This document shows, one piece after another, positions 3,386 to 13,234 of a stretch of 64,000 nucleotides of DNA. How positions within the stretch are numbered: position 1 is the first letter of the stretch; every line of letters begins with the position of its first letter. The DNA lies in NCBI RefSeq assembly GCF_014202475.1, contig NZ_JACHGV010000004.1, forward strand, positions 248,001 through 312,000. The letters are read 5' to 3'. The DNA is from Streptomyces paradoxus (GTDB lineage Bacteria; Actinomycetota; Actinomycetes; Streptomycetales; Streptomycetaceae). A program made the translations under genes and the position numbers. The notes below the pieces were generated by a model. It saw nothing but the letters and a program-made list of their open reading frames with translations. It did no database searches and had not been told where the DNA came from.

Positions 3386-4447
3386 ATGCCCGGAACCGTG
3401 CTGTTGCTGGCGGCCTCGCCGGTGGGCAAGGGGCGCCTGGTGGACGCCGCCTCCGTGCTCCCCGTCCTCGCCGCCGTGGCGCCCGCGGTGCTGTCCGGCA
3501 CCGACACCGCGAACGTCGTCGAACTCGCCGACCCGCTGGAGCCGCAGGCCGTCCTCACCCGGCTGCGCGCCGCCGCCGCGGCCCCCGGCCCCCTCACCGT
3601 GTACGTCACCGGCCAGCTCCAGCTGGACCGCCGACAGCGCCTGCCCCACCTCGCGCTGGCCCGCACCACCGCCTCCACCGCCCGCTACACCGCCTTCCCC
3701 TGGCACTGGTTCCGCGAGGAGCTGCGGCTCAGACCCGCCGGCGCCACGACCCTCCTGCTCGACCTGCACGCCGACGCCGAGACCTGGGAGCTGCTGCGCG
3801 CCACCCCGCTGGACGCGGGCCGCGGCAACGTCGTTCACGGTCGCATCGCGCCACCGCCGTCCCGGCGCACGGTCGCGCAGCCGTCGTACATGAAGGCCGT
3901 CGCGACGATCCTGCGCAGCGGGTTCCGGCCGCCGGCCGAGCAGTTGCACCAGCAGGCGCTGGCCCGGATCGCGCCGGAGAGCGCGGGCACGGACCTGGTG
4001 CTGAGCACGCCTGGCCCGGCGGTCGGCGATCCGCACGCCGCCATCACCGCCGCCGTCCAGTCCGGCCGGCACACCGAGGCCGACGCGCTCGCCGCCCGGC
4101 ACGAGCAGCTCGCCGTCGCCGCGCACGGCCCCGCGTCCGAAGAGGCCCTGCACTGGGCCGAGGTGCGGGCCGACCTGGCGATGTTCGCCGGGGACGCCGC
4201 CCGCAGCTGCCGCACCTGGCTGATGATCGCCACCGCCCGCCTGAACGCCGGGCAGGCCCCGGACGCCCCCGCCGTCGAGTCCGCCGTGGACCGGGCGCAC
4301 CACCAGTGGGGCCAGGTCCGCGACACCGCCCCCGCCCGCGAACTGGGCGCCGCCCTCGCCGCGTTGCGCGGACGGGTGCCCGGGCGGCGCGAAGGCGCGC
4401 TGGACCATGTGCAGCGCCAGCTACGGCAGTTGCAGACCCAGGCCTGA
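3386..4447 (+). CDS. uncharacterised protein upstream of caspase cassette
   Basis: The protein has about 353 residues, no signal peptide and no membrane helix. The first ~170 residues look like an alpha/beta fold (MPGTVLLLAASPVGKG, LTVYVTGQLQLD, TTLLLDLHAD). The C-terminal ~150 residues are Ala-rich helices of TPR-like character (AAVQSGRHTEADALAARHEQ). I do not recognise a named family. ATG 3386 follows the purine-rich stretch AGGGGG and is preferred over earlier codons. It lies upstream of and co-oriented with the EACC1-like and caspase genes with a 124-base gap, so it may be part of the same signalling cassette, but that is inference from position. Confidence 0.65.
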   Translation: MPGTVLLLAASPVGKGRLVDAASVLPVLAAVAPAVLSGTDTANVVELADPLEPQAVLTRLRAAAAAPGPLTVYVTGQLQLDRRQRLPHLALARTTASTARYTAFPWHWFREELRLRPAGATTLLLDLHADAETWELLRATPLDAGRGNVVHGRIAPPPSRRTVAQPSYMKAVATILRSGFRPPAEQLHQQALARIAPESAGTDLVLSTPGPAVGDPHAAITAAVQSGRHTEADALAARHEQLAVAAHGPASEEALHWAEVRADLAMFAGDAARSCRTWLMIATARLNAGQAPDAPAVESAVDRAHHQWGQVRDTAPARELGAALAALRGRVPGRREGALDHVQRQLRQLQTQA

Positions 4448-4911: not shown

Positions 4912-7446
4912 GTGAGCCGCTTCGACCCGCGCGGCAAGGTGAACCGGGCGCTGCTGGCCGGTGTGTCCGAGTACGACCACACGGCACCGGACGACTCCCA
5001 GGGCGTGAGCGGTCAGCTCCCGGCCGTACGGCACAACCGGACGGGACTGGAGGACGCGCTGCGCCGGGGCGGGGTGTTCGGCGCGGGCGAGGTGCGGGCC
5101 CTGGCCTCACCGGCCCCGGACGACTTCACGCGCGAGTTGCGCCGCGTCTGCCAGGAGGCCAGAGGGCTGCTGCTGTTCTACTTCGCCGGGCACGCCGTGA
5201 CCTCCACCTCCGGCAGCGAACTGCACCTCCAGATGCGCACCGCGCGGGTGCTCACGGGCAACGGACTGCCCGGCTCGGTGACCTTCACCGAGGTGCTCGG
5301 CGAGCTCGCCGAGAGCAACGCCGAGCAGGTGGTGGTGATCCTCGACTGCTGCTACGCCGGCAACGCGGCGGGAATCTGGCACCGCTTCGACGATCCGAAG
5401 CGCAAGAAGCACAAGATCCTGCTGCTGATGAGCGTGCAGCCCAACCGCTGCATCCTGGGCGGGGACGCCGACATGGCGACACCGTTCACGCGTGAACTCA
5501 CGCACGTCCTCGACGAGGGCGGCGAGGTGTGGCTCTCCGGGCTGTACACCGCGGTGAAGGAGCGGATGGCGGCGGCGAACTACCGGGCGGAGGACGACGA
5601 CTCGCAGCGGCCGCAGGCGCTCGCTCCTCCCTGGAAGCAGGATGCGGATGTCCTGCTCGCGGCAGGTCCGGGGGTCGTGGTGGACCCGTCCGGGCCCGCG
5701 CACATCGGCTGGTTCCCGTGGCTCCGGCCCCTGGTAGCCCGCGCCGGCAAGGCCTTCGCCCGGTCCGGCCGTACCGCGCTGGCGGCTCTGCTCGCCGTGC
5801 TCGCCACCGGCGCCGGCGGCTACGGCATCCTGGCCCTGACCGGCGAATCCGGACCCTGCGCACCGGCTCTGGAACTGCGCGTCCTCGCCGACCCCGACCT
5901 GGAGCCGGTGGTGCGGGCGGCCGCGGACTCCTACGTCACGTCCGACGCCAACACCACCGGCGAGGGTTGCCGGCGCAGCGGCATCACCGTCAACAGCGCG
6001 GGTTCCGCGGCGGTGGTGAACGCCCTGGGTGAGCGGACCGACGCCTGGCAGCAGCCCCGGGAGGACGACAACCCGCAGCGGGACATCGGCCCGCAGCCGG
6101 ACGTGTGGATCCCCGCCACCGGCGCCGACGTCGACCGCGTCTCCTCGGCCGCGGCCAAGGAGGACCGCGTCTTCGCCCGGCTGGAACCGGAGGCCGAGCC
6201 GATCGCGTACTCGCCGGTCGTACTGGCCGTACCGAAGGCACTGGACGCCGGCCTCGAACCCACCGGGCGGTCGCTGTCCCGGCTGCTCGACGACCTCGAA
6301 CGGGCCGATGGCGCAACGGAAGTGCACCGTCCCGACCCGGAGTTCACCGACGCTGCGCTGCTGGCGACGACGGGCCTGTACGGCGGTGACGCCGACGCGC
6401 GCCGTGCCGAGCTGCGCCTCGCCCGGACCGAGCGGCCCGAACCCTCGGCCGTGCGGCTGCTGTGCGCGTTGCCCGGCGGCGGCGACGCCGTGGACGACCA
6501 CGGCGCGGCGCTGGTCCCCGAGTTCCTGCTGAAGAGCGGCACCGGCTGCCACCCGGTCACCCGCGCCGCGCGCGTGGCCGCCTACCCCGACGACGTACCC
6601 GGCCTGGAACCGGCGTTCGTGCGCGTGCGCTGGGAGGACGGTGACCGGGATGCCGCCGCGCGGGACGACGCGGTGGACCGCTTCCACACCTGGCTGACCG
6701 GGGAGGACGGCCGGGCGGTGCTCGGCGAGCACGGCTTCAGGTCCGCGAAGGGTGAACGGGGCCTGCTCGACGCGGCATCGCCCCCCAAGGGCGTCACCGA
6801 GTCCGTCCAACCGGCCAGGGCCGCCGACCCCACGACGATGGACCAGACACTGGAGGACTACGGCAACGCTCACGGGCCCGGCCGGGTGCTGTACCTCCTC
6901 GACAGCTCCGGCTCCATGGCCGGCCGGTGGGACGGCCCCAGCGGAGGCCCGGGCATCCTCAAGCAGACCCTGCCCGGACTCGGCGGGGGGGACGAGTACG
7001 GGGTGTGGGCGGTGCACGGCACCGGCGACCGTACGCACACCGAGCTGCTGGAATTCGGCACGCACGGGCGCCGCGAGGCCGAAGACGCCCTGGACGCCGC
7101 CGAGGTGCGGGACGCGGAGGCCGATCCGCCCGGCGCCCTGCTGGACGCCCTGGCGTTCATGCGGGAGCGCAGCAGCGGCGACGACCGGCCGCAGCTGATC
7201 GTGTACCTGACCGACGGCGAGGACGACGGCCGCCTGACGAGGAAGGCCCTCAAGGAGGTCCTCGACCGGGCCGGCGGCGCGGGCGTCCCGGTGACCATGG
7301 TGTCCCTGAGCAGCGCGGGCTGCGACCAGGGCCGCCCCGCCACGCGCATCGCCGAGGCCGGCCGGGGCCGCTGCCTCGACACGGGTGACGATCTCGTGCC
7401 CGCCCTGCACGACGAGGTCGCCCGCACCGGAACGGGGGAGGAATGA
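4912..7446 (+). CDS. transmembrane caspase (peptidase C14) fused to substrate-binding and vWA domains
   Basis: The 844-residue protein has four parts. Residues ~10-250 form a caspase/metacaspase domain with the catalytic His in LLFYFAGHAV (H94) and Cys in VILDCCYAG (C147). A single membrane helix lies at about 289-310. Residues ~320-640 resemble a periplasmic type 2 solute-binding domain (LRVLADPDLEPVV, PDVWIPATGADVD). Residues ~665-840 are a von Willebrand A domain with the MIDAS motif DSSGSM and a second motif TDGED. The likely topology is a cytoplasmic protease with extracytoplasmic ligand-binding and adhesion-like modules, so it could transmit an outside signal to proteolysis. GTG 4912 follows the EACC1-like gene by four bases. 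The stop overlaps the next start as ATGA, which implies coupling to the solute-binding lipoprotein. Activity and substrate are unknown. Confidence 0.85.
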   Translation: MSRFDPRGKVNRALLAGVSEYDHTAPDDSQGVSGQLPAVRHNRTGLEDALRRGGVFGAGEVRALASPAPDDFTRELRRVCQEARGLLLFYFAGHAVTSTSGSELHLQMRTARVLTGNGLPGSVTFTEVLGELAESNAEQVVVILDCCYAGNAAGIWHRFDDPKRKKHKILLLMSVQPNRCILGGDADMATPFTRELTHVLDEGGEVWLSGLYTAVKERMAAANYRAEDDDSQRPQALAPPWKQDADVLLAAGPGVVVDPSGPAHIGWFPWLRPLVARAGKAFARSGRTALAALLAVLATGAGGYGILALTGESGPCAPALELRVLADPDLEPVVRAAADSYVTSDANTTGEGCRRSGITVNSAGSAAVVNALGERTDAWQQPREDDNPQRDIGPQPDVWIPATGADVDRVSSAAAKEDRVFARLEPEAEPIAYSPVVLAVPKALDAGLEPTGRSLSRLLDDLERADGATEVHRPDPEFTDAALLATTGLYGGDADARRAELRLARTERPEPSAVRLLCALPGGGDAVDDHGAALVPEFLLKSGTGCHPVTRAARVAAYPDDVPGLEPAFVRVRWEDGDRDAAARDDAVDRFHTWLTGEDGRAVLGEHGFRSAKGERGLLDAASPPKGVTESVQPARAADPTTMDQTLEDYGNAHGPGRVLYLLDSSGSMAGRWDGPSGGPGILKQTLPGLGGGDEYGVWAVHGTGDRTHTELLEFGTHGRREAEDALDAAEVRDAEADPPGALLDALAFMRERSSGDDRPQLIVYLTDGEDDGRLTRKALKEVLDRAGGAGVPVTMVSLSSAGCDQGRPATRIAEAGRGRCLDTGDDLVPALHDEVARTGTGEE

Positions 7447-8846
7447 TGGCCCGCCGCCTGACGGCCGCCGCACTGTCCCTGCTGTCCCTGCTCGCGCTCA
7501 CCTCCTGCACCGGCAAGGACGCGCCGGAGCAGCCGCAGGGCGCCGCCGACCCGCCCCGGATCGTGGTGGCCAGCGGCCAGGACGTGACCGGCAAGAACGG
7601 CATCCGCCAGCAGCTCATCGACGCCTGGAACGCCCAGGAGGGCGAACACGGCTACCGCGCCCGCCTGGTGGAGCTCCCCGGCTCCGCCGACCAGCAGCGC
7701 AGCCAGTTGCTCGGCGCGCTCCAGTCGGGCGGCGCCGAGTACGACGTGGTGAACCTGGACGTGACCTGGATCCCGGAGTTCGCCGCCGCCGGCCTGATCC
7801 GCCCGCTGACCGGCGCGGCGGTGAAGTCGCCCGACGACATCATCGAGGCCGTCGACCGGACGTCGTTCTGGGACGGCGAGCGGTACGCCGTTCCCTTCAA
7901 CAGCGATGTGGGCCTGCTGTACTACCGCAAGGACCACCTGCGGGGCGCGGGCACCTCCCGGACCGGACTGGGCCGCGGAGTGACCTGGGACGACCTGCGG
8001 GAACTGATCGACGCCGTCAACGACGACCCCACGAAGCCCGGGAACTACGAGGAGGGGTGGACCACGCAGCTCGCCGCCTACGAGGGCCGTACGGTCAACG
8101 CGATCGAGGCGTTCGCCTCGGCCGTCCCGGACTTCGCGCTCACCGACGAGGACGGCCGGTACACCGCCGACGAGGAGCAGTTGACGGCCGGGGTGACCGA
8201 ACTGCGGGAGCGCACGCAGTCACCGCCGTACATGCTGGACGAGGCCTCCGGCTCCCGCGAGGCCGAGTCGCTCAGCGCCTTCGCGGAGGGCCGCACGACG
8301 TTCTTGCGGCACTGGCCGTACGTCTACCCGGCCCTGTACGAGAGGTTCAAGGGGAATCTCGGTGTGACCCGGCTGCCCGGCAAGGCCGTGCTCGGCGGGC
8401 AGAACCTGGCCGTCACCTCGAACACGTCCGAGCAGCGGGCCGCCAAGGCCGCCGAGCTGATCGCGTTCCTGACCGACCCGGACAGCGAACGCTGCCTGCT
8501 GCGCGCCGGGTTCGCCGCGACCCGCACCTCCGCCTACCGGCACCCCGGCGGCACCCCGGAGTGTCGGCACGCCTCCGCGTACTCCACAGGCGCCTCGGCG
8601 TCCCCCACCGGCGAGAGCGCCGAGGTCAAGGCCCCCGACCAGCTCGCCGGCGGCGTCAGCTACTCCCGCGACATCCTGCTCCCGGCCCTGAGCGAGGCCG
8701 TGCAACGCCCCCGCACACCCCTGTACGGCGCCGTCACCCAGACCCTCATCACCCAACTGGGCGCCCTGTACGGCCCCCGGCCGCCGCGGGACGCGGAGGT
8801 GGCGAAGAACCTCGACGAGGCGCTGAGCGAGGTTCTGCCCGACTGA
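7443..8846 (+). CDS. orphan extracellular solute-binding lipoprotein
   Basis: The 467-residue protein starts with a lipoprotein signal peptide ending in the lipobox LTSC, so it should be anchored to the outer face of the membrane. The body is a family 1 extracellular solute-binding protein of the sugar type (AWNAQEGEHGYRARLVELPG, YDVVNLDVTWIPEFAAAGLI, YAVPFNSDVGLLYYRK). Such proteins normally feed ABC importers, but no permease or ATPase gene is adjacent. Instead it is translationally coupled (ATGA overlap) to the caspase gene, whose product has its own solute-binding-like domain. It is therefore more likely a sensor or ligand presenter for that protein than a transport component; this is inference. 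Confidence 0.85.
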   Translation: MMARRLTAAALSLLSLLALTSCTGKDAPEQPQGAADPPRIVVASGQDVTGKNGIRQQLIDAWNAQEGEHGYRARLVELPGSADQQRSQLLGALQSGGAEYDVVNLDVTWIPEFAAAGLIRPLTGAAVKSPDDIIEAVDRTSFWDGERYAVPFNSDVGLLYYRKDHLRGAGTSRTGLGRGVTWDDLRELIDAVNDDPTKPGNYEEGWTTQLAAYEGRTVNAIEAFASAVPDFALTDEDGRYTADEEQLTAGVTELRERTQSPPYMLDEASGSREAESLSAFAEGRTTFLRHWPYVYPALYERFKGNLGVTRLPGKAVLGGQNLAVTSNTSEQRAAKAAELIAFLTDPDSERCLLRAGFAATRTSAYRHPGGTPECRHASAYSTGASASPTGESAEVKAPDQLAGGVSYSRDILLPALSEAVQRPRTPLYGAVTQTLITQLGALYGPRPPRDAEVAKNLDEALSEVLPD

Positions 8847-8880: not shown

Positions 8881-9033
8881 TCAGCGGGAGTCGGCCACCG
8901 CCCGCGGGGCCGGTTCCGGGGTTTCGGCTCTTGCCGGGCCCGCGTTCGCCGCGAGCAGCAGGGTCGCCACCGCGACCAGGGCGGCGGTGAAGCCTCGGGC
9001 GTACCGCTCGGCGGTGCGTGTGCGCATCAGCAC
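8881..9033 (-). CDS. small secreted peptide, candidate signalling peptide
   Basis: This 50-codon gene is too short for usual gene lists. GTG 9033 has GAGG five bases upstream; an internal ATG at 9027 is the alternative. The product has a basic N-terminus (MRTRTAERYARG), a hydrophobic core (FTAALVAVATLLLAANAG) and a cleavage site after ARA, leaving about 14 residues, ETPEPAPRAVADSR. It has no Cys, no lipobox and no bacteriocin features. It is divergent from an XRE-TPR regulator with GTTNAAC boxes between them. That arrangement resembles peptide pheromone-receptor pairs, so the mature peptide may be a ligand of the regulator; this is inferred from layout and not proven. Confidence 0.65.
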   Translation of the reverse strand: MLMRTRTAERYARGFTAALVAVATLLLAANAGPARAETPEPAPRAVADSR

Positions 9034-9073
9034 GGCGACCTCGCAACTGGGGCGGTGACTACGGCGGCAGTGT

Positions 9074-9114
9074 GTTAAACGTGTTCAACAATTCGGCTTA
9101 ACACTCCGTTTAAC
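9074..9114. promoter_or_regulatory. GTTNAAC operator cluster in divergent region
   Basis: GTTAAAC (9074-9080), GTTCAAC (9083-9089) and GTTTAAC (9108-9114) share the palindromic core GTTNAAC. The outer arms GTTAAACG (9074-9081) and CGTTTAAC (9107-9114) form a perfect 8-bp inverted repeat, and a further TTAACAC lies at 9098-9104. The AT-rich block is conspicuous in this GC-rich DNA. Placed between the peptide and regulator starts, it probably overlaps both promoters and is the best candidate for the XRE regulator's binding site. Confidence 0.6.
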
Positions 9115-9161
9115 CTAGGGGCAGTTCAGGTCGAACGGCAAGGGGCACAGGGGGAGTTGGC

Positions 9162-10505
9162 GTGGGGGAGCGTGACGATCCGGGGACCATCGGTCGCCGG
9201 GTGCAGCGGTTGCGTGTGGAACGCGGGCTGACGCAAAGGCAGTTGGCGGAACCCGTGTACACACCGGCCTATATCTCCACCCTGGAGTCGGGCCGGGTGC
9301 GGCCCTCCGACGACGCGCTGCGGCATCTCGCGGACCGGCTCGGCGTCGCCTTCGACGAGCTGGCCAGCGGGCATTCCGCGCGACGGGTGACCGAGCTGCG
9401 GCTGCGGCTGACCGAGGCCCAGCGGATCCTCGCCGTCGGCGAGACGGAGGCGGCGGCCGGGCAGTACGCCGGGCTGCTCGCCGAGGCCGAGACGCACGGG
9501 CTCACCGCGGAGCGGTCCGCCGCCCTGCTGGGCCTCGGCGAGTGCGCCCTGGAGACGGGCGAACTCGTGGCGGGCCGGCAGTACTTCGAGCGGGCCGAGG
9601 AGTGTCTGGCCGGCGCGCCGCTGCCCGCCCGTGTCCCGGCCCTGCGCGGCCGGGCCGTGGCGCACTACCTCGCCGGTGAACTCCGCTACGCGGTCTACCT
9701 GCTGGAGACCGCCCTCGACGAACTGAACCGCGGCGGCCTGCACGACCCGGACGCCCTGCTGCTGCTCTACGCCAGCGCCATCGGCCCGTACATGGACATG
9801 GGCGCGCACGCCCGGGCCGCCCAGGCCGCCGAGTTCGCCCTGGCCCTCGCCCCGCAGTCCGGTGACCCCGCCCTGGTCGCCCGCATGCACCGGTCCGTCG
9901 CCCGCACCCTGGTCGCCGAGGGCCGTCTCGCCGAGGCCGACGCCTCCCTGGCCAAGGCCGCCGAACTGTACCGGGGCCTGCAGATCCGCACCGAACTCGC
10001 CAACTGCCACTGGATGCGCGGCTACGTCTACGCCCAGGACGGACAGCTGGAGCGGGCGGAGGCCGAACTGCGGGAGGCGCTCGGCATGCTGTCGGCCAAG
10101 CGCGCCGCCCTCTACAGCAGCCAGGTAGCCGTCGAGCTGGCCGACGTGCTGCACCGGCGCGGCCGGTCCGACGAGGCGGCGGCCCTGCTGCACGACGTCC
10201 TCGGGCACCTGTCCCCCGAGCGCGGCGCCGTCCACGCCGCCGCCGCGCACCGGCTGCTCGGCATCATCGCCGAGGACGCCCGTCGCACGGAGGAGGCCGA
10301 GGAACACTACGTCCGCGCCCTGAGCCTGCTGGAGCGGGCCGGTGCCGCCGGCGACCTGGCCGACCTGTGCCGCCTGCTCGGTGACCTGCTGCGGCGGACC
10401 GGCCGGGTGGAGGCGGCCCTGGACGCCTACCGGACGGGCCTCGGGCACCGCACGGCCCCGGGCACCACCACCCTCGGGCCCGCGCCCGCCCAGCCCCCTC
10501 TGTGA
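9162..10505 (+). CDS. XRE-family HTH regulator with TPR domain
   Basis: The 447-residue protein begins with a Cro/CI-type helix-turn-helix at about residues 9-65 (IGRRVQRLRVERGLTQRQLA, YISTLESGRVRPSDDALRHLADRLG). The rest is a helical array of tetratricopeptide-like repeats running almost to the C-terminus, with a disordered Pro/Thr tail. HTH plus TPR is the architecture of the RRNPP/Rgg-type peptide receptors of Firmicutes, where a re-imported peptide binds the TPR superhelix, and also of several Streptomyces regulators with unknown ligands. The neighbouring divergent secreted-peptide gene and shared operator boxes suggest a local switch. The start is GTG 9162 with GGGGGAG-like purines upstream. 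Confidence 0.85.
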   Translation: MGERDDPGTIGRRVQRLRVERGLTQRQLAEPVYTPAYISTLESGRVRPSDDALRHLADRLGVAFDELASGHSARRVTELRLRLTEAQRILAVGETEAAAGQYAGLLAEAETHGLTAERSAALLGLGECALETGELVAGRQYFERAEECLAGAPLPARVPALRGRAVAHYLAGELRYAVYLLETALDELNRGGLHDPDALLLLYASAIGPYMDMGAHARAAQAAEFALALAPQSGDPALVARMHRSVARTLVAEGRLAEADASLAKAAELYRGLQIRTELANCHWMRGYVYAQDGQLERAEAELREALGMLSAKRAALYSSQVAVELADVLHRRGRSDEAAALLHDVLGHLSPERGAVHAAAAHRLLGIIAEDARRTEEAEEHYVRALSLLERAGAAGDLADLCRLLGDLLRRTGRVEAALDAYRTGLGHRTAPGTTTLGPAPAQPPL

Positions 10506-12442: not shown

Positions 12443-13234
12443 GTGATCGTGCGGCCCAGGGACGATCCCGGAGGCGCCCACGACGGCGACCCGGGTCCCG
12501 GCCGCACCGGAGGCGGAGACCCGGACCCGGACGGAGCCCGGGCCGCCGACGTGATCGCCCGAGGCATGCGGGGCGCCGAGCCCGGCGAGGTCCCGGGACG
12601 GCTGTGCGAGGTGGCGGTGGAACTGCTGCCGGTGACCGGCGCGAGCGTGTCCCTGCGCAGCGAGGGCATGCCCGTGCAGCTGAGCGCGAGCAGCGCACAG
12701 GCCGCGCACCTGGCGCAGATCCAGGCGACCCTGGGTGACGGCCCCTGCCAGAGCGCGCTGGAGGACGGCGCGCCGGTCCTCGCCTGCGACCTGACCTCGG
12801 GCCGGGACGCGGGACGCTGGCCGGTCTTCGCCCAGCAGGCGACGGAGGCCGGAGTGCGGGCGGTGTACGCGGTGCCGCTGGGCAGCGGAACGGTGTGCGT
12901 CGGCACGCTCGACCTGTACCGCGACCGCCCGGGCGGGCTCACCGACCGCCAGCTGCACGTGGCCCGGATCGTGGCCGGGGTGATGACCGTGGCCCTGATG
13001 GCACTGCCGCACGGGGACGAGCCCGAGACCCCGGACGGGGAGGACTGGCTGAGCGGCCTGGCCACCGACCACGACGAGGTCTACCGGGCCGTCGGCATGA
13101 TCATGGCGCAGCTCGGCGTGGGCGCGGACGACGCGCTCGCGCGGCTGCGGGCCGACGCCTTCGCGCACGGGCGCACGGCCCTGGACGTGGCACGGGACGT
13201 CATCGCCCACCGCACGCGCTTCGACCGGTCGTGA
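12443..13234 (+). CDS. GAF-ANTAR domain transcription antitermination regulator
   Basis: The 263-residue product has an acidic Gly/Asp-rich N-terminus, a GAF domain (~residues 45-180; TLGDGPCQSALEDGAPVLA, VRAVYAVPLGSGTVCVGTLDLY) and a C-terminal ANTAR domain (LATDHDEVYRAVGMIMAQLG, LARLRADAFAHGRTALDVA). ANTAR binds paired stem-loops in nascent RNA and prevents termination; GAF would sense a small ligand or redox state. GTG 12443 is supported by GAAGGAGGC immediately upstream. It converges on the lipoprotein gene. The RNA target is unknown. Confidence 0.9.
   Translation: MIVRPRDDPGGAHDGDPGPGRTGGGDPDPDGARAADVIARGMRGAEPGEVPGRLCEVAVELLPVTGASVSLRSEGMPVQLSASSAQAAHLAQIQATLGDGPCQSALEDGAPVLACDLTSGRDAGRWPVFAQQATEAGVRAVYAVPLGSGTVCVGTLDLYRDRPGGLTDRQLHVARIVAGVMTVALMALPHGDEPETPDGEDWLSGLATDHDEVYRAVGMIMAQLGVGADDALARLRADAFAHGRTALDVARDVIAHRTRFDRS

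Follow-up and report, generated by a model that had tools for sequence, protein, structure and literature searches.

A 50-codon gene of Streptomyces paradoxus, whose product resembles a signal peptide standing nearly on its own, is very probably the dedicated target of the HTH-TPR regulator encoded divergently beside it, with the conserved hydrophobic core of the small product as its working part. Four patterns read from genome comparison carry this view: purifying selection on the core, constant linkage of the two genes, a conserved and genome-rare predicted operator between them, and the exchange of the small gene for an M64-type peptidase gene in related loci. More tentatively, and with slightly less than even confidence, we propose a complete chain in which the pair forms a dedicated module, the regulator controls a signal-peptide-only microprotein, and the core of this microprotein feeds back on the TPR domain.

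A small gene divergent from an HTH-TPR regulator

The window analysed here is a stretch of 64,000 nucleotides (contig NZ_JACHGV010000004.1, positions 248,001 to 312,000). Its relevant features are as follows.

8881-9033, minus strand: microprotein gene of 50 codons, with a basic N-terminus, a hydrophobic core, an AANAGPARA end and a 14-residue variable tail
8926-9006, minus strand: conserved core RYARG...AANAGPARA, residues 10-36, from the alignment and dN/dS
8884-8925, minus strand: 14-residue C-terminal tail ETPEPAPRAVADSR, the candidate pheromone of the sequence-only reading
9039-9042, minus strand: ribosome-binding site GAGG of the small gene; the leader GCGAGGTCGCC or a similar one is kept in most loci
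9075-9113: predicted operator with TTAA half-sites at 9075, 9098 and 9110; relatives keep the TTAA sites
9162-10505, plus strand: XRE-type HTH-TPR regulator of 447 aa (Pfam HTH_3, E 2e-9; TPR_12, E 4.1e-15)

The sequence-only reading had described a 50-codon gene with a ribosome site, divergent from an HTH-TPR gene. This gene is real, with a GTG frame preceded by GAGG at 9039-9042. Translation from the GTG start gives MLMRTRTAERYARGFTAALVAVATLLLAANAGPARA-ETPEPAPRAVADSR, which, judged by eye, suggests a Sec signal (basic N-terminus, uncharged stretch, A-x-A). The small frame had no match in Pfam or NCBIfam. The GTG start and the GAGG leader were retained in most of the 110 loci compared; the start codon is ATG in L107 and a shifted ATG in six L030-type loci, and L040 has no start codon around the aligned position. 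One related peptide reads 109 aa (L041). Core residues R13, A17, A18, L25, A28 and P33 were invariant among 36 aligned peptides. Across 68 distinct cores, the Asn of AANAGP was 97% conserved, while its Pro reached 100% only because the cores were cut there, and none had a Cys in the last six core positions, where an enterococcal-type lipobox would need one.

The regulator gene lies 128 bp from the small gene. With 447 aa, an HTH and TPR repeats, its product has the layout of RRNPP receptors (250-500 aa). The structure model of the regulator had a mean pLDDT of 80.7 and a pTM of 0.57. In comparisons with Foldseek and VIA-align many TPR proteins ranked similarly, and RRNPP receptors were present, not at the top. 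The TPR part of the model aligned with NprR (Z 24.9) and RapI (Z 24.3), and LGN structures scored higher (Z up to 28.3), so the fold alone indicates a TPR superhelix. Sequence resemblance to PlcR was confined to the HTH (residues 10-62, E 8.9e-6). A search for paralogues in the same genome gave a single further place, an HTH-sized stretch (E 3.7e-7).

Linkage of the small gene and the regulator

We collected 80 relatives by the regulator, the best 80 of at least 351 confirmed, all of them Streptomyces. Together with 30 genus loci, including the S. paradoxus locus, they make up the 110 loci, which hold 98 distinct regulator sequences since twelve were fetched twice. A tblastn search with the 50-aa peptide matched in 110 of 110 loci, always on the strand opposite to the regulator.

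Linkage was counted in a separate sample of 295 Streptomyces genomes, 192 of which have the regulator at E up to 1e-60. Among the matches listed, 118 of the 119 regulators with at least 79% identity have the small gene within 3 kb (117 listed peptide-profile matches plus G254, a tail-less peptide that the profile missed). The sole exception, G238, has a secreted M64 peptidase instead of the small gene. The co-conservation expected by the sequence-only reading is thus borne out, and the neighbour is a divergent gene of 50 aa, inside the 10-100 aa range of adjacent RRNPP propeptide genes.

Conversely, 110 of the 117 strongest peptide matches (down to E 7.4e-7) adjoin such a regulator. The seven others are G022, where the regulator is deleted except for 22 residues; G124, where it is broken by an insert resembling a transposase fragment; three genomes (G293, G176 and G206) with the peptide beside regulators without an HTH; G013, with a peptide match and no regulator match in the stretch; and G062, with a regulator of 70% identity. 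Among the numbered loci the peptide outlives the regulator in L141 (regulator deleted), L142 (broken by an insert) and L143 (regulator absent, peptide apparently degraded). In L142 the interrupting stretch at 3640-3988 is transposase-fragment-like and carries Cys pairs, and the small gene is intact.

The other neighbours vary. In the 80 fetched loci we counted a permease in at least 30, an SBP in at least 21 and a GAF-ANTAR gene in at least 59; these counts are lower bounds because several of the loci have short flanks. The GAF-ANTAR gene (window 12443-13234) lies behind the regulator and the permease and is more constant than the intervening permease. At 4912-8846 the window encodes a caspase-like Peptidase_C14 protein fused to an SBP_bac_11 domain; this gene overlaps a second solute-binding protein gene by 4 bases, and both occur in at least 21 of the 80 fetched loci.

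When 150 family-level genomes were searched with the profile, convincing peptide matches came from the genus alone. Three weak matches from other genera (E 9e-6 to 7e-5), in frames of 214-670 aa, were regarded as chance.

Purifying selection on the core

We measured dN/dS (omega) as Nei-Gojobori sums over pairs that share ancestry, so the values are comparative and carry no error bars. The core was taken as the 24 codons ending at P33, the Pro of AANAGP, with 87 distinct sequences. The analysis covered 102 of the 110 loci, leaving out L076, where the motif is absent, and seven loci without an assigned start.

The core had a dN/dS of 0.265 in frame 0. The two shifted sense frames gave 1.42 and 2.91, and the three antisense frames 1.35, 0.50 and 3.85. 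On this frame-specific pattern we rejected a non-coding or chance frame. Within three close groups, core values of 0.054, 0.205 and 0.039 compare with tail values, from the same genes, of 0.386 (10 distinct tails), 0.521 and 0.521. The small frame is therefore under purifying selection, as the sequence-only reading required, with core omega of 0.04-0.27 in frame 0. The tail is not neutral (0.39-0.52), and its constraint is weaker than that of the core.

Two other signal peptides served as controls. Among 20 genomes that carry the small gene and the SBP gene, omega was 0.286 for the peptide core, 0.507 for the SBP signal peptide and 0.596 for the rest of the SBP; in the same genomes the HTH of the regulator had 0.132 and its TPR part 0.164. 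In eight M64 loci the signal peptide had 0.488 and the remainder 0.355. Both control signal peptides are looser than the microprotein core, and the SBP is a lenient control since it evolves fast throughout.

A predicted operator between the two genes

The intergenic TTAA sites recur at set spacings in relatives. Within the 230 nt before the small gene, three TTAA are present in 100 of the 110 loci, two in nine and none in L047. A conserved candidate operator with three TTAA sites kept in relatives thus lies within 9074-9114, where regulator binding had been predicted.

We then examined how rare strict forms of the site are; degenerate sites fall outside these counts. Of 15 chosen genomes, 11 contain the palindrome TTAARCNNGYTTAA, each a single time and in every case in the DNA that separates the small gene from the regulator; its exact form is absent from the other four, S. 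paradoxus among them. A reversed control of the palindrome was present in three of the 15 genomes. The pattern TTAARCN6TTAARC has a single occurrence in the S. paradoxus genome, at window 9096-9113. In 13 genomes it gave four matches. Three of them fall in the intergenic DNA of this gene pair, and the fourth is in G002, a genome in which the regulator search had found none. The reversed control of this pattern gave six matches in the 13 genomes, which places it at background outside this locus.

In seven loci (L030, L034, L035, L038, L042, L052 and L158) an insert separates the small gene from the regulator. The palindrome adjoins the small gene in all seven and lies 0.57 to 1.8 kb from the regulator, which indicates that the site belongs to the promoter of the small gene. 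Those of the seven that are in the tree share one branch, so the insertion was probably a single event. The insert of L034, L035, L038, L042 and L052 contains a frame, about 285-320 aa long, resembling an XRE regulator by eye.

The orthologues without an HTH in L144, L145 and L146 have one, one and no TTAA, compared with the usual three. Fewer TTAA where the HTH is lost suggests that the site is tied to the HTH. L047 is a counter-example, as its regulator has the HTH and its intergenic region holds only a degenerate version of the site.

Proposed control and feedback

From these patterns we infer DNA binding, the direction of control, membrane insertion and feedback as follows. The HTH-TPR protein would bind the intergenic TTAA palindromes and control both itself and the small gene, the latter probably being its main target. 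The microprotein, essentially a free-standing signal peptide, would be inserted into the membrane by Sec and either cleaved or left uncleaved. Its working part would be the conserved hydrophobic core ending in AANAGP, and the core or a fragment released from it probably acts back on the TPR domain, as a ligand or as a membrane partner. Rgg-SHP and ComR-ComS are autoregulatory loops, and the loop proposed here would be of their kind; a conserved, genome-rare predicted operator lies at what would be the promoter of the small gene.

Feedback is suggested chiefly by loci where the regulator has lost its HTH. In L144, L145 and L146 Pfam finds no HTH family in the TPR protein, and the peptide is still present. 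The TPR proteins of L144 and L145, the one pair compared, had an omega of 0.224. These two are sisters in the tree, and together with L146 they place HTH loss at two positions. Retention of the TPR protein beside the peptide after loss of the HTH suggests a relation of its own between TPR and peptide, as judged from these two places in the tree. In L199-L203, from another genus of the family, the HTH part found no match in the orthologous TPR protein (frames of about 420-450 aa), and the search for a neighbouring peptide gave nothing.

The module is supported by sequence comparison through linkage that stays constant while other neighbours vary, selection on the core, the tail-less forms described below and the rare operator. 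Against it count the persistence of the peptide without the regulator, the locus without TTAA (L047), a tail-less group with a weak core omega of 0.486, a tail that is itself not neutral, the better match of TPR folds such as LGN that have no tie to peptide sensing, and the presence of M64 in only 6 of 25 genomes with weaker regulator matches.

A serious competing explanation, which we consider possible although doubtful, is that the microprotein is an effector only. It would act at the membrane, for example on protein export or the state of the envelope, and the TPR domain would sense imported oligopeptides or a protein. Many deeper relatives encode an enzyme, an output, in the same place, the operator belongs to the small gene, and the peptide has been kept for some time without the regulator in L141 and L142. 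The loss of the HTH with the TPR-peptide pair kept (L144-L146) is easier to understand if TPR and peptide interact, and we know of no effector role for so short a core.

The tail and tail-less forms

The sequence-only reading had suggested a possible peptide pheromone, with the 14-residue tail as the candidate. Among the 14 nearest of the fetched relatives (L002-L015, regulators 93-99% identical), 8 have a tail of the window type and the other 6 a different, longer one. Certain C-termini are common to species groups, VADSR in the group of the window and VEAAVR in another. Twelve loci (L147-L155, L157, L221 and L076) are tail-less, with at most two residues after the Pro at the end of the core. 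Their frames have 32-48 aa in L147-L155 and L157, which were mostly picked for weak or stop-crossing profile matches and are not a random sample, 32 aa in L221 and 33 aa in L076. Core omega in two tail-less groups was 0.198 and 0.486 (without L147 and L155).

Since the tail is variable, less constrained than the core and missing in twelve loci, it cannot be the general signal, and we rejected a conserved tail pheromone as a general rule. A group-specific role of the tail is possible. The proposal of ETPEPAPRAVADSR as the pheromone lacks support on the same three grounds. Of the earlier reading, then, the peptide-regulator pair finds support and the tail pheromone does not. Canonical Sec-exported RRNPP members have the mature pheromone after the signal sequence, an arrangement not found here.

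These data also bear on a classical RRNPP pair. In such a pair the C-terminal tail would be cleaved and exported, then taken up again as a ligand of the TPR domain, and pherotypes would differ between species. The size, adjacency and TPR layout of the locus fit the search criteria given in the RRNPP_detector paper (PMC10075063), the tail omega is below 1, and the C-termini are common within species groups. With a different tail in six of the 14 nearest loci, twelve loci overall that are tail-less, and selection stronger on the core than on the tail, we consider such a pair improbable.

An M64 peptidase gene in the same place

The place of the small gene is taken by another gene in more distant relatives. 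Of 20 sampled loci with regulators 68-74% identical, a divergent M64-type peptidase gene adjoins the regulator in 14; in L167, L168 and L169 the M64 lies at the edge of the locus, about 1.5-2 kb away; L163 has the peptide, and L165 and L166 showed neither peptide nor M64. Another 25 genomes had weaker or partial regulator matches; with flanks of 1.5 kb, six of them showed M64 (L198, L204, L208, L213, L216 and L217). PF09471 confirms M64 at L173, L156, G019 and G018. M64 matches were found in 25 loci, and the peptide in none of those 25. The S. paradoxus genome gave no M64, and in 11 peptide-bearing genomes searched, two have M64, on contigs other than that of the regulator. In L214 a regulator of 55% identity faces yet another frame with a signal peptide (278 aa), so genes for further secreted proteins may also occupy the position next to regulators of this family.

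M64 rows take basal, paraphyletic positions in the tree of regulators, interspersed with rows showing neither gene. A clade of 60 rows with 100/100 support contains 45 rows with the peptide, 11 tail-less, 3 with HTH-less regulators and one with M64 (L156). These positions suggest an origin in which an HTH-TPR regulator faced a secreted M64 peptidase that was later lost or trimmed to its 5' end.

We compared leaders over 45 bases, a length that takes in the last part of the final TTAA site, the ribosome site and 12 coding bases. Over this length the M64 gene of L156 matched the small-gene leaders with a mean score of 33.1, and 300 unrelated leaders reached at most 25.6; an earlier comparison against shuffled sequence only had given L156 a z of 5.5. 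This likeness indicates that the M64 gene of L156 sits behind the leader of the small gene. None of 18 other M64 leaders stands out, the best scoring 19.9, which 6% of the unrelated leaders reach. Outside L156, M64 and the small gene have place, orientation and TTAA sites in common.

At the protein level the comparison gave no support for descent from the M64 signal sequence, as 20 M64 N-termini scored no closer than 61 control signal peptides. The best M64 scores against the core profile were 5.3 and 3.4, reached by 20-21% of the controls; the controls are partly near-redundant lipoproteins, which weakens this test. The M64 N-termini do not include L168, L224, L208 and L204, whose starts were uncertain or duplicated, or L180, for which we found no start preceded by a ribosome site. 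A search of the 80 fetched loci with five M64 queries (E up to 0.5) for M64 remnants near the small gene gave one weak match, in L066 (E 0.039). The unremarkable 18 leaders and 20 signal peptides count against descent from the M64 signal sequence. The microprotein may be a cut-down M64 signal sequence, or M64 may have been regained in L156.

It is very improbable that the small frame is a mere remnant, the surviving 5' end of an M64 gene that was lost, retained solely for the adjoining operator and promoter DNA. The replacement of one gene by the other at this position would fit such a remnant, as would the leader common to the L156 M64 gene. However, codon-level purifying selection is strongest in frame 0 and exceeds that of a control signal peptide, the six listed profile matches that cross stop codons are intact shorter frames (L082 and L147-L151), and the operator lies outside the frame. 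Least probable of all is a small-toxin module repressed by the HTH-TPR protein, which a small hydrophobic peptide and an apparently dedicated regulator would suit, because L141 and L142 still have the peptide although their regulator is deleted or broken.

Comparison with known systems

The proposed module can be set beside three other arrangements. As in the RRNPP pairs PlcR-PapR, NprR-NprX and Rgg-SHP, a 447-aa HTH and TPR regulator stands beside a gene for a short secretory-looking peptide. Unlike those pairs, this one is found in an actinomycete host, has a conserved signal-like hydrophobic core with a variable or missing tail, and, in the 11 genomes with a strict palindrome, shows just a single copy of it. 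The M64-paired Streptomyces HTH-TPR regulators resemble this regulator in sequence (68-74% identity), orientation and intergenic TTAA sites, whereas they face an M64 peptidase of about 450 aa with a signal-like N-terminus rather than a microprotein.

The third arrangement is that of the enterococcal pheromones. According to a review of pheromone plasmids (PMC7117660), cCF10 corresponds to the seven residues that end a lipoprotein signal peptide, and the functional sequence here would likewise be the end of a signal peptide. Here, in contrast, there is no lipobox cysteine, and no lipoprotein follows the signal peptide. The more specific idea of a free-standing signal peptide serving as an actinomycete pheromone, with the M64 peptidase lost and the end of its signal sequence kept for the same regulator, is unlikely in our view. 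If true, it would be an enterococcal-style signal, independently evolved and stripped of its carrier protein.

The RRNPP_detector paper describes a survey of Firmicutes and viruses, notes that signals in Actinomycetota are typically small molecules, and names the SHP and PrgQ propeptides as belonging to known RRNPP members without the canonical Sec layout (PMC10075063). A search of open-licence PMC articles, covering titles and the starts of abstracts, found no published description of this peptide-regulator pair.

Sensing of short peptides by HTH-TPR proteins has been described mainly from Firmicutes, and here a candidate system occurs in a large clade of Streptomyces. With a defined predicted operator, a defined core and natural variants (tail-less, HTH-less, regulator-deleted and M64 forms), the module is directly testable. 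A secreted enzyme whose place is taken by a bare signal peptide under selection would point to a possible route for the origin of pheromone genes. This tiny signal-peptide gene and its regulator may represent a new kind of bacterial peptide signal or switch.
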